Virus record (IMG/VR): IMGVR_UViG_3300006654_000663
Span: 1-41,433 of that record
Direction: 5' to 3' (one strand)
Source of the DNA: a virus
DNA: 41,433 bases
A program made the position numbers and the translations under genes. The notes under the pieces were generated by a model, which was not told the DNA's origin, did not search any database, and worked only from the letters and a program-made list of their open reading frames with translations. Of the stretch, positions 30,322 through 32,899 are shown piece after piece. Position 1 is the first letter of the stretch. Every line of letters starts with the position of its first letter.

Positions 30322-30813
30322 TCAGGCGGCCTCGCTTTGTGCTTTCGACTCTACAAGTTGGGCCAGAGTCACGGCGTTGCCAGTGGCGTCCGAAACCGCC
30401 TTAAGCGTCGCCGTGGAGTGCTCACCCTTGCCCGACATAATCCGCCAAAGCGTCGTGCGAGAAATGCCCGCGCGCTCTGAAAGCTCTTCACGGGACAGGC
30501 CGGACGCCTTGAGATATTTGGAGACCGGATGACCGAGCCGAGGATCAACCCACCGATAAAGCGCGATCACCTCAGCCACTTCCGGCGTGCAGTCGAACCA
30601 TTCCGCGCGCAGATGCGACGCTGCAAAATGCTTGTGCCAGAACCTCTCAGTTTCGGCCGTTACGCCAAGTTGGGCGGCGACAATACTAAGCTGCCTAGGG
30701 TTGCCAGTCTGGAGCGCAGCAAGGCGAACGGTCGGAGCACCTGCCGTCCAGCCAATTTTGACCGGACCCGCTTCACACTCTTGGATGAAATATACCGTAC
30801 CAAGGACGCTCAT
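30322..30813 (-). CDS. GIY-YIG-like (MUG113/T5orf172) plus XRE HTH fusion, 163 aa
   Basis: The N-terminal 85 residues carry the pattern of the MUG113/T5orf172 branch of GIY-YIG-like domains: VYFI at 7-10, VKIGWTAGAPTVRLAALQTGNP at 18-39, Glu56 in ETERFWHKHF and EWFDC near 71-75. The C-terminal part is an XRE helix-turn-helix (SKYLKASGLSREELSERAGISRTTLWRIM, about 98-126). It ends in TLAQLVESKAQSEAA, resembling the end of the upstream XRE protein. Likely a regulator; nuclease activity is not proved. The start overlaps the upstream gene as ATGA. Confidence 0.72.
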   Translation of the reverse strand: MSVLGTVYFIQECEAGPVKIGWTAGAPTVRLAALQTGNPRQLSIVAAQLGVTAETERFWHKHFAASHLRAEWFDCTPEVAEVIALYRWVDPRLGHPVSKYLKASGLSREELSERAGISRTTLWRIMSGKGEHSTATLKAVSDATGNAVTLAQLVESKAQSEAA

Positions 30814-31046
30814 GCTGCGGCCTCGCTTTGTGCGCCTTGCCGTTGCTCTCTGAGCGTATCGACCAGCGTCGAAACAGACACATCGTCATCAGTGGCGGCG
30901 GCTATCTCGATCAGGGTATCGACCGAAAACGTGCCTTCACCCTTCAGCAGCTTGTACACAGTCGGATAGGAGAACGGACGCCCTTCGCAGAACGCTGTCA
31001 CGCTGATATCGCGCGACTTCAGCCAAGCTCTTAGTGGGTGCTTCAT
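30810..31046 (-). CDS. XRE-type HTH regulator, first gene left of the operator, 78 aa
   Basis: Short DNA-binding protein with an XRE-like fold (RAWLKSRDISVTAFCEGRPFSYPTVYKLLKGEGTFSVDTLIEIAAATDDDVS). Probably a Cro-like repressor or antirepressor. No ribosome-binding site precedes the ATG at 31046, and the predicted transcript would begin at about that base, so a leaderless mRNA is likely. An in-frame ATG at 31055 would lie inside the -10 element, so it is not preferred. The C-terminal LREQRQGAQSEAAA tail resembles that of the next gene. Confidence 0.72.
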   Translation of the reverse strand: MKHPLRAWLKSRDISVTAFCEGRPFSYPTVYKLLKGEGTFSVDTLIEIAAATDDDVSVSTLVDTLREQRQGAQSEAAA

Positions 31047-31052
31047 GCCACC

Positions 31053-31081
31053 CATTTAAGCTAGACTAAAATTTAAGACAA
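31053..31081 (-). promoter_or_regulatory. Candidate leftward promoter (pL-like)
   Basis: Leftward strand: TTGTCT (31081-31076), 17-bp spacer, TAAATG (31058-31053). The same arrangement, TTGCCT-17-TAAATC, is found facing right at 31480-31508. Both hexamers overlap operator-like sites, so repressor binding would block RNA polymerase. Transcription would start close to 31046, the ATG of the XRE gene. Confidence 0.5.
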
Positions 31082-31095
31082 GCGAAAATTTAAGT
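31054..31095. promoter_or_regulatory. Left operator array (three sites, 17-bp spacing)
   Basis: ATTTAAG occurs at 31054-31060, 31071-31077 and 31088-31094, exactly 17 bp apart; the middle and right sites extend to AAAATTTAAG and the middle one to the near-palindrome CTAAAATTTAAG. The whole 42-bp block is an inverted copy of 31466-31507, 35 of 42 positions identical. Expected to be bound by the adjacent XRE proteins. Confidence 0.75.
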
Positions 31096-31127
31096 TATGG
31101 CACAAATACACTGTCTGCGCATGGCTG

Positions 31128-31133
31128 TAGAAT
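31128..31133 (+). promoter_or_regulatory. Candidate -10 element of the repressor gene
   Basis: TAGAAT (5 of 6 to TATAAT) lies nine bases before the ATG at 31143. No good -35 is seen 16-18 bp upstream, and there is no ribosome-binding site before the ATG, so transcription beginning around 31140 would give an almost leaderless message. Activation from the left operator array could compensate for the weak -35. Confidence 0.3.
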
Positions 31134-31142
31134 TTCAGCACC

Positions 31143-31454
31143 ATGCAAGAGCACTACATCAAACAATGGCGGAAGAAACGGGGGCTGTCTCAAAAGCAGC
31201 TCGCCGAACGCATGGAGTCCGAGCCCGGCGAGCCGTTGATGTCCCACGTCACCATCAGCAACATCGAGCGCGGCGCTCAGAGCCCCACGCTGGAGCAACT
31301 ACACGCATTTGCGAACGCGCTGGACGTATCTGTCTCCATGCTCGTTGAGAATAATCCTACCATTGATAGCGAGGTCCTGGACCTCGTTGGTCGCCTGAAT
31401 GAAGGGAATCGCGGAACGGTTCTCGCAATGCTGAAAGCAGCTGTCGGCGAATAA
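31143..31454 (+). CDS. XRE-type repressor flanked by operator arrays, 103 aa
   Basis: Candidate immunity repressor. The XRE domain covers about residues 5-65 (IKQWRKKRGLSQKQLAERM, then HVTISNIERGAQSPTLEQLHAFANALDVSVSMLVE); the C-terminal 35 residues are a short helical oligomerisation-like tail. There is no S24 peptidase domain, so RecA-stimulated self-cleavage is not expected and induction must use another route. It lies between two inverted operator arrays with outward promoters. Alternatively it is Cro-like. No ribosome-binding site precedes the ATG. Confidence 0.78.
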   Translation: MQEHYIKQWRKKRGLSQKQLAERMESEPGEPLMSHVTISNIERGAQSPTLEQLHAFANALDVSVSMLVENNPTIDSEVLDLVGRLNEGNRGTVLAMLKAAVGE

Positions 31455-31465
31455 ATTTCAATTGT

Positions 31466-31507
31466 ACTTAAATTTTAGCTTGCCTTAAATTTCATTGTGT
31501 CTTAAAT
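31466..31507. promoter_or_regulatory. Right operator array (three sites, 17-bp spacing)
   Basis: CTTAAAT occurs at 31467-31473, 31484-31490 and 31501-31507, exactly 17 bp apart, with a degenerate fourth (AATAAAT) at the same interval at 31450. It is the inverted partner of the left array. The first site extends to the near-palindrome CTTAAATTTTAG. It lies between the repressor gene and the rightward early operon. Confidence 0.75.
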
Positions 31508-31508
31508 C
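31480..31508 (+). promoter_or_regulatory. Candidate rightward early promoter (pR-like)
   Basis: TTGCCT (31480-31485), 17-bp spacer, TAAATC (31503-31508), matching the leftward TTGTCT-17-TAAATG. An alternative is TTGTAC (31462-31467) with TTAAAT (31485-31490), also 17 bp apart. Either overlaps two operator sites. The start would be near 31515, leaving a 25-nt leader with GAGGAG before the ATG at 31540. Confidence 0.5.
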
Positions 31509-31526
31509 TCTTCTCAGCTAACCACT

Positions 31527-31542
31527 GAGGAGCACAGACATG
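31527..31542 (+). promoter_or_regulatory. Repeated ribosome-binding leader, copy 1
   Basis: GAGGAGCACAGACATG is repeated exactly at 32094-32109 and 32569-32584, each time at the start of one of the first three early genes. Such conservation of the bases between the GAGGAG and the ATG suggests selection on translation initiation or recent duplication of a gene-start cassette. Confidence 0.7.
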
Positions 31543-32082
31543 GCATTCGAACTCGACACTGATGAACTGATGCGGATGGCGGCAACAAAAGCCGCAGACA
31601 CCGTCATCGACGAAGACGATCTCTTCAAACAGGTACGCGAGACCGTCGACGCCCGTATCGACAAGCTGTTCAGCGAGAAATTCGACGCGGTGATTAACGA
31701 CCAGATTGAAGCCGCCATGAAGGACGGCTTCGACCGCGAGTTTCACGAAATCGACAGCTTCGGACGCCCGCAGGGCGAACCAACGACGATCAGCAAGAAG
31801 CTGGCGGCCATGGTTCAGAACTACTGGCAGGAGACGGTCGACCGGAACGGCAAGCCCACCCCCAAGATCTCATACGGCGACAACACTACCCGTGCCGAAC
31901 ACACGCTGCTCAAGCTGTGCGGCCAAGACTTCCACAAAGAGCTGCATCAGCAAACCCTCAACGCCGCAGGCGCTCTGAAAGACGGGCTTCGCGCGGAGCT
32001 TCGCGGCTGGGTCGACAAGTCTCTTGGCGAGATTTTCCACGTCCGCAGCGCAGACGACCAAGCCGAAAAGCGCAACCGCTAA
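31540..32082 (+). CDS. Early protein of unknown function, 180 aa
   Basis: First gene of the rightward early operon. Acidic helical N-terminus (AFELDTDELMRMAATKAADTVID), then a region of mixed charge with KLFSEKFDAVINDQIEAAMKDGFDREFHEIDSFGRP and a C-terminal basic helix (AALKDGLRAELRGWV-like). No motif is recognised. It could be a nucleic-acid-binding or inhibitory early protein. The start is fixed by the strong GAGGAG leader. Confidence 0.68.
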   Translation: MAFELDTDELMRMAATKAADTVIDEDDLFKQVRETVDARIDKLFSEKFDAVINDQIEAAMKDGFDREFHEIDSFGRPQGEPTTISKKLAAMVQNYWQETVDRNGKPTPKISYGDNTTRAEHTLLKLCGQDFHKELHQQTLNAAGALKDGLRAELRGWVDKSLGEIFHVRSADDQAEKRNR

Positions 32083-32106
32083 GCGCACACAAAGAGGAGC
32101 ACAGAC

Positions 32107-32568
32107 ATGCCATTCGGCCTCACCCACAAACAGCTCAAGGCGCTTGACCCTTGCGAGGAAGAGTTTCGCGCGGTCACGAAAGTGCTCGGCGGTCCCCGCA
32201 AATGGAACGGCAAGCTGATCACGGCCCAACAGGCGCGAGACGCTGGCGTCAGCTTCGACAATATCGTCTGGGCCGCCTCTTCCGTGGCCCGCTCTGACAA
32301 GCAAGTTGAGCGCCGCCTCCGCCATTGGATGGCAGATTGTGCCGCCCGCGTGCTTCACATTTTTGAGAAAGAATGCCCCGGCGATGACCGCCCACGCAAG
32401 GCTATTGAGGCTGCGCGCCTGTATGCCGATGGGAAGATAGGGGTCGCCGCATGGGACGCCGCAGGGGACGCCGAAGAGGCATGGCAATTTGACAGGCTTT
32501 GCGAATGGCTCAGCGACACGCCGCCGGAACCCCTCGCGCTTCCCGCGATCCAGAAACAAGCCGCTTAA
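32107..32568 (+). CDS. Early protein of unknown function, 153 aa
   Basis: Second early gene, with the identical GAGGAGCACAGAC leader. The N-terminus LTHKQLKALDPCEEEFRAVTKVLGG and the helical DDRPRKAIEAARLYADGKIGVAAWDAAGDAEEAWQFDRLCEWL resemble a family of phage or immunity-labelled proteins that start with Leu-Asp-x-Cys and have Ala-rich helical repeats; the family has no known function that can be asserted here. No catalytic motif is visible. Confidence 0.65.
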   Translation: MPFGLTHKQLKALDPCEEEFRAVTKVLGGPRKWNGKLITAQQARDAGVSFDNIVWAASSVARSDKQVERRLRHWMADCAARVLHIFEKECPGDDRPRKAIEAARLYADGKIGVAAWDAAGDAEEAWQFDRLCEWLSDTPPEPLALPAIQKQAA

Positions 32569-32581
32569 GAGGAGCACAGAC

Positions 32582-32899
32582 ATGGCAACCGCCACCGACC
32601 CCCGCGAACACTTCCGCAACCTCAGCGAAGGTTTCGTCACCGCCCGTCAATGGAATGTCTCCCGCGCCATGGAGTGCGCAGAGATCGCCTTTGCGACCGA
32701 GACAGCCATGCGCAACGCCCCCGAGCCTTGGACCGAAGAAGCAATTCAACACGCCTCCGAAGCTCTCTGCGACCACTTCCATGACGTTGAAGACTGGAAA
32801 GACGACAACGGCGCTACGGACAAGTCGAAGATCATGGCGGATTGCCTGAACCTCCTGCGTGCCCGCGCCGCCCGTGCTTCCATGAAGGGGGCTGCGTGA
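32582..32899 (+). CDS. Early protein of unknown function, 105 aa
   Basis: Third early gene with the repeated leader. Helical, Ala-, Glu- and Arg-rich (ATATDPREHFRNLSEGFVTARQWNVSRAMECAEIAFATE), with a central His/Asp-rich segment (CDHFHDVEDWKDDNGATDKSK) that might bind metal. Stop overlaps the pentapeptide gene start as TGATG. A longer frame from 32489 is rejected in favour of the ATG with GAGGAG. Confidence 0.6.
   Translation: MATATDPREHFRNLSEGFVTARQWNVSRAMECAEIAFATETAMRNAPEPWTEEAIQHASEALCDHFHDVEDWKDDNGATDKSKIMADCLNLLRARAARASMKGAA

Follow-up and report, generated by a model that had tools for sequence, protein, structure and literature searches.

We propose that the window, by which we mean the whole stretch of 41,433 bases of viral DNA analysed here, very probably carries a lambda-type switch with which a tailed prophage chooses between lysis and lysogeny, all of it contained in about 460 bp. 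In this model, dimers of a 103-aa repressor would bind 17-bp dyads in two operator arrays and block RNA polymerase at two outward promoters. The leftward promoter would drive a cro-like gene followed by the genes for replication and virion proteins, and the rightward promoter would drive the recombination genes and the integrase. Immediately upstream of the candidate promoter of the repressor gene lies the left array, which should thus also place the repressor under its own control. Once the leftward promoter fires, the Cro-like protein, translated from a leaderless message, would compete for the operators and lock in lytic growth. The arrays, gene content, geometry, conservation and covariation on which this model is built are read directly from the sequences compared, and the interpretation as an immunity switch is strongly supported by comparison with related loci. 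Furthermore, these loci probably form a large and previously unrecognised set of lambda-like switches whose repressors are minimal and peptidase-free. Across this set the operators would hold an almost constant position, and their sequence would diverge in step with the recognition helices of both the repressor and the Cro-like protein.

Proposed operator arrays flanking the repressor gene

The heptamer ATTTAAG occurs six times on the two strands of the window (shuffle mean 1.33; none of 100 shuffles reaches six), and every copy is confined to one of two arrays flanking the gene of the 103-aa HTH protein. The copies advance in 17-bp steps, at 31054, 31071 and 31088 on the plus strand and, as CTTAAAT (ATTTAAG on the minus strand), at 31467, 31484 and 31501. 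An earlier sequence-only reading of this DNA had reported six sites with 17-bp spacing, and both positions and spacing prove exact. When the local 601 bp were simulated 20,000 times under a first-order Markov model, neither a triple 17-bp array nor a single 17-bp-spaced pair arose. The 42-nt arms at 31054-31095 and 31466-31507, with 370 nt between them, are 83% complementary (35/42), confirming the inverted 42-bp blocks around a small XRE gene that had been described.

Comparison of relatives sets the register of the actual repeat unit, a 17-bp dyad of the form TTTNAG-N5-CTNAAA repeated head to tail. In this register each array consists of three abutting 17-mers with zero gap (Table 1), the innermost left site being a half-site only, with 2/6 dyad pairs, and the centres of the two arrays are 401 bp apart. 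When one mismatch is allowed, the dyad matches five times in the window (0.65 expected), only within the arrays, and no further operator was found elsewhere in the window at that threshold. The host genome holds just two other exact consensus matches, the same number as the reversed-pattern control.

Table 1. Features of the switch and its neighbouring genes (positions in the window)
Feature	Position	Strand	Details
Second leftward gene, 163 aa, T5orf172 (GIY-YIG-like) + Cro-type HTH	30322..30813	-	lambda cII position
Cro-like gene, 78-aa HTH protein	30810..31046	-	ATG 6 nt past -10 hexamer; predicted leaderless
Leftward promoter (lambda PR equivalent), predicted	31053..31081	-	-35 TTGTCT 31076-31081, 17-bp spacer, -10 TAAATG 31053-31058
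Left operator array (lambda OR equivalent)	31055..31105	.	conserved in L009-L013, L026, L027
Left array sites	31055-31071; 31072-31088; 31089-31105		10/10 of dyad consensus; 9/10; half-site
Candidate repressor -10 (PRM equivalent), TAGAAT	31128..31133	+	downstream of left array, 9 nt before repressor ATG
Repressor gene, 103-aa HTH_3/XRE protein	31143..31454	+	HTH domains only; helix-operator covariation across relatives
Right operator array (lambda OL equivalent)	31456..31506	.	inverted vs left array; conserved in relatives
Right array sites	31456-31472; 31473-31489; 31490-31506		9/10; 10/10; 9/10
Rightward promoter (lambda PL equivalent), predicted	31480..31508	+	-35 TTGCCT 31480-31485, 17-bp spacer, -10 TAAATC 31503-31508
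Shine-Dalgarno GAGGAG of first rightward gene	31527..31532	+	sequence
First rightward-operon gene, 180 aa, phrog_14855, no assigned function	31540..32082	+	domain annotation

The 17-bp-spaced inverted cassette, for which a search in related prophages had been suggested, is indeed present there, both arrays being kept in seven relatives from viral contigs and MAGs (L009-L013, L026 and L027) whose repressors are 65-79% identical to that of the window. Three of them, L009, L010 and L026, have the right array displaced to about 680 bp past the repressor gene by an intervening convergent gene, which in L026 encodes a lipoprotein-like protein of 191 aa, and the displaced array still comprises three sites at 17 bp in L010 and L026. 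This conservation of the arrays amid changing surroundings is evidence of function. The compactness stressed in the sequence-only reading stands as a description of the window, where the inter-array distance is short, but this distance is, judging from the relatives, one state of a variable slot in which many of them carry extra genes. Short genes, one or two in number, are frequent in the slot between the repressor gene and the distal operator, at the position of lambda rexAB (L008/L026, L017, L106, L122, L127, L157, L164, L170, L188, L244 and L245). Their products look secreted, lipoprotein-like or membrane-spanning when judged by eye, and these genes may serve lysogenic conversion or superinfection exclusion. 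When viral contigs were scanned for TTTAAG occurring three times in 17-bp steps, 64 matches came up; four of them carry the repressor gene, all already known, and in three of these four the scan threshold also revealed the second, inverted array. A megablast search of phage records with the right half of the window gave no match.

Promoters, leaders and gene setting

The outward promoters had been described as TTG(T/C)CT-17-TAAAT(G/C), and this pattern is exact, with TTGTCT-17-TAAATG leftward and TTGCCT-17-TAAATC rightward. The operator overlaps the spacer and -10 of the leftward promoter, and the geometry of this promoter is repeated in 60/68 relatives. We infer that both promoters are active and that transcription starts just beyond them; a consensus promoter scan flagged neither at its threshold, both -10 hexamers being poor, and the promoter and terminator scan as a whole was uninformative. 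The repressor's own candidate promoter has no recognisable -35 and is the weakest of the three. Across 116 loci, similarity to a -10 peaks 6 nt before the repressor's ATG (2.70 vs about 1.4), and a Shine-Dalgarno precedes that ATG in just five. Because of this peak and the scarcity of Shine-Dalgarno sequences, both divergent genes, repressor and cro-like, are predicted to be leaderless, for which the cI and cro mRNAs of PY54, both leaderless by RACE, provide a precedent (PMC4488713). The rightward transcript would carry a leader with GAGGAG, followed by the ATG at 31540. A near-identical ribosome-binding stretch, GAGGAGCACAGACATG, precedes the starts of the successive rightward genes at 31540, 32107 and 32582 (31520-32585, plus strand).

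For the leftward HTH gene the most likely start is 31046 and not 31055, because its homologues start M(E/T)HPL. We read its 78-aa product, with the putative recognition helix SYPTVYK, as the Cro analogue. The leftward genes continue with the T5orf172-HTH protein, a DNA repair protein, a DnaB-like helicase, a methyltransferase, terminase, portal, tape measure and tail J, and the rightward genes encode the phrog_14855 protein, ERF, a YqaJ exonuclease and the integrase, such that replication and virion genes run one way and recombination genes and the integrase the other. Since flipping the strand gives the gene order of lambda, the left array is equated with OR and the right array with OL. The earlier designation of an OL-repressor-OR module holds, since related loci conserve the pairing of the arrays, the promoters pointing outward and the geometry, but its two labels are reversed, the left array being the one between the repressor and cro-like genes. 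No other repressor candidate was found among the proteins scanned. At the second leftward position several relatives encode a different protein of 148-162 aa, and the second rightward gene of the window (32107-32568, plus strand) matches an Imm-5-like putative immunity protein (PF21805, E 3e-13).

The proposed repressor and its possible routes of induction

The recognition helix of the repressor is SHVTISNIE, residues 34-42. The protein consists of an HTH_3 domain within its 103 aa and has no S24/LexA-type peptidase domain, the hallmark of the CI family, in line with the lack of a cleavable S24 domain noted earlier. In the HTH turn before the recognition helix (residues 26-33) there is an insertion of about eight residues around SEPGEPLM, shared by the window's clade and a related group and absent from shorter members. 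No PDB sequence matches the repressor at E 1e-5. The predicted structure, of moderate confidence (7-row alignment; pLDDT 75, pTM 0.58), ends in two short C-terminal helices. Its best fold match is SinR (E 8e-4), with the P22 c2 and 434 repressor domains lower in the ranking, and it also resembles C-proteins of restriction systems and DdrO; given the moderate confidence of the model, we count these fold matches as supportive only.

Self-cleavage of the lambda type is excluded as the route of induction because the peptidase domain is absent. Inactivation by an antagonist protein or fluctuation of the repressor level would be the likeliest routes, and the two modelled C-terminal helices together with the SinR match are compatible with control by an antagonist. 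Small proteins that inactivate phage repressors independently of SOS have been described (PMC10432266).

A wider family of loci with a nearly fixed operator position

Two further profile searches brought the collection to 198 loci with a relative of the repressor, 122 of them non-redundant. In 68 of the 122 the Cro-like gene has a 17-bp dyad whose end lies 7-10 nt ahead of its start codon and whose sequence differs by lineage, being GTTCGC-N5-GCGAAC, for example, with the L107-type repressor. These 68 loci were selected for a dyad at a fixed position, and only the start-codon-anchored scan of 95 loci is free of that selection; there, 17-bp dyads cluster 7-10 nt upstream of the leftward ATG, with 35 at those four positions and about one per position elsewhere. 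A TTG[AC] -35 stands shortly before the dyad in 60/68 loci (background 10%), and a Shine-Dalgarno precedes the leftward ATG in 1/68. The geometry of the family is one in which the dyad follows the -35 by 3-5 nt and the start codon of the Cro-like gene follows 7-10 nt on, with no predicted leader.

The operator found on the left is repeated, again with a -35, on the right of the repressor gene in 57/68 loci, at no more than 320 bp in 32 of them and at up to 2.5 kb in the other 25, compared with 10 + 9 of 408 (<5%) in a cross-locus control; in the remaining 11/68 it was not found within 2.5 kb. The arrays of relatives mostly have two or three sites, often 17, 33-36 or 67-70 bp apart, and the gapless triplet of the window looks like a filled-in version of this ruler of about 17 bp. 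A dyad-free comparison of left and right 17-mers, in which 11/122 loci exceeded the 99th percentile, is a weak test and is superseded by the dyad-anchored one.

Which protein reads the operators

Operator similarity between loci follows the identity of the repressor recognition helix when the rest of the protein is controlled for (partial r 0.36, P 0.001), compared with 0.07 for the rest of the repressor when the helix is controlled for. Thinning the loci to <55% identity (41 loci) leaves this result in place, with r 0.36 (P 0.0005) for the helix and 0.02 for the rest. At helix position 2, Gln accompanies TAT half-sites in 10/10 cases and Lys accompanies GTT/GTC half-sites in 14/14; the former pairing recalls the contact of Gln44 of lambda repressor with A. 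Because the operator co-varies with the recognition helix of its homologues, this evidence points to the 103-aa repressor as the reader of the arrays. The repressor of locus L246, only 32% identical to that of the window, shares SNIE in the helix and has the operator TTTTAG-N5-CTAAAA, almost identical to that of the window, a likeness that may reflect either convergence or an old conserved specificity. L246 also has three right-hand sites at 17 bp and Asn at the same helix position (7) as the window.

The recognition helix of the Cro-like protein is closer to that of the local repressor than to those of other repressors (3.41 vs 2.57 of 7, P 0.0002), also in the thinned set (P 0.0002), and this likeness is concentrated in the recognition helix, with little or no excess in other repressor segments. 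This suggests that the repressor and the Cro-like protein read the same sites, as CI and Cro of lambda do, a claim that rests on the family and not on the pair in the window, whose two helices are only loosely alike (2/7 by automatic match).

Alternative explanations

It is unlikely that the main binder of the arrays is the 78-aa Cro-like protein or the 163-aa HTH fusion, with the middle gene merely lying between the arrays. Both are HTH proteins of the leftward operon, and the helix likeness within loci suggests that the Cro-like protein reads the same sites, but shared binding, as in lambda, fits our model equally, operator sequence tracks the recognition helix encoded by the middle gene once the rest of that protein is controlled for, and it is the middle gene that the arrays bracket in 57/68 loci. 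Quite unlikely, too, is a module whose sites are real but which serves as an autoregulated accessory regulator, for example of defence or of a toxin-antitoxin system. The resemblance of the repressor fold to SinR, C-proteins and DdrO would suit such a role, but one of the promoters points into the entire operon of replication and virion genes and the other into the operon of recombination genes and integrase, and the proteins scanned include no second repressor candidate that would be the main immunity repressor.

As A+T-rich 17-bp repeats arranged head to tail, and with a DnaB-like helicase encoded in the leftward operon, the arrays could be taken for iterons of a replication origin. This is very improbable, as the dyads stand at constant spacing from start codons and -35 elements in many loci, lie on both sides of the repressor gene with a sequence that follows the recognition helix of that repressor, and in most relatives number two or three per array without long runs. 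One gene between two 83%-complementary inverted arms might also represent a small mobile or invertible element with terminal repeats, an explanation that is hardly credible: the arms are themselves built of three 17-bp units, the layout recurs in relatives although their arms have diverged or share no sequence at all and vary in separation, no recombinase lies between the arms, and the orientation of the repressor gene relative to the Cro-like gene is constant in the relatives examined. Neither an empty site nor an inverted copy of the module was found among the relatives fetched.

Implications

A switch of 460 bp with a 103-aa repressor would come close to a minimal version of lambda's decision circuit, and its lack of self-cleavage and of an oligomerisation domain for looping asks what those parts contribute; the induction of prophages whose repressor cannot be cleaved is a question accessible to experiment. 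Because the family combines dozens of naturally occurring repressors and their operators with a single, constant promoter framework, it provides a data set for the HTH recognition code. If our reading is true, the immunity group of a prophage could be read from its sequence, helping to predict which prophages exclude which. Finally, the loci may supply compact, mutually distinct repressor-promoter parts for alphaproteobacteria, for which a shortage of such tools is reported, with several coliphage promoters weak or inactive in Methylobacterium (PMC3694467).

Comparison with known systems

Paired operators of this family were not found in the openly licensed papers searched, which is weak evidence of absence, and the family is apparently large and undescribed; we set it beside the C repressor of phage 16-3 and the Sulfitobacter regulators by description only. 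The Rhizobium phages RHph_Y1_10, RHph_N2, RHEph18 and RHph_I1_23 have a repressor 33-42% identical to that of the window and a divergent cro-like gene with a TTGATT-17-TACAAG or TTGACT-17 promoter and a start codon 5-6 nt later; their operator sequence differs from that of the window, and no right-hand operator was found close to the repressor gene in these four. Sinorhizobium phage 16-3, also an alphaproteobacterial temperate phage, has oL1, oL2, oR1 and oR2 (PMC12429752) and a PR that reads TTGACG-17-TAGATT in a primer sequence (PMC3694467); two sites per side are reported there, compared with three in the window. In the alphaproteobacterial temperate Sulfitobacter phages A and D the LexA/peptidase domain is likewise missing from the XRE regulators, and no operators are described for them in the same paper (PMC7305329).

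The immB regions of the telomere phages N15, phiKO2 and PY54 have a lambda-like layout in common with the window, and the CB repressors of phiKO2 and N15 likewise have no self-cleavage site (PMC4997575). Their operators are 16-bp sites, three in OR and two in OL, with OL upstream of repA and not beside the repressor gene (PMC4997575, PMC4488713). The window has 17-bp TTTNAG-N5-CTNAAA dyads in place of the 16-bp T-A-N10-T-A operators of N15 type and, unlike the window, these phages are gammaproteobacterial plasmid prophages.

The closest parallel in plan is lambda itself, with its six 17-bp operator sites (PMC4997575). In both, several operators separate a repressor gene from a cro-like gene that diverges from it. 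Both also have a further set of operators past the 3' end of the repressor gene that covers the other early promoter, operators inside both early promoters, and the same gene order and relative orientation once the strand is flipped. The three-site, 17-bp likeness claimed in the sequence-only reading holds for the three 17-bp dyads on each side with two qualifications: the sites of the window abut with zero gap whereas those of lambda are separated, and one left site is a half-site. The window further differs from lambda in its small repressor, which has no cleavable C-terminal domain, in having neither rex nor N between repressor and distal promoter, and in the predicted leaderless Cro-like gene, and the sequences are unrelated beyond the HTH. 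The module is one that would work like lambda OL-cI-OR but stands outside the CI family.
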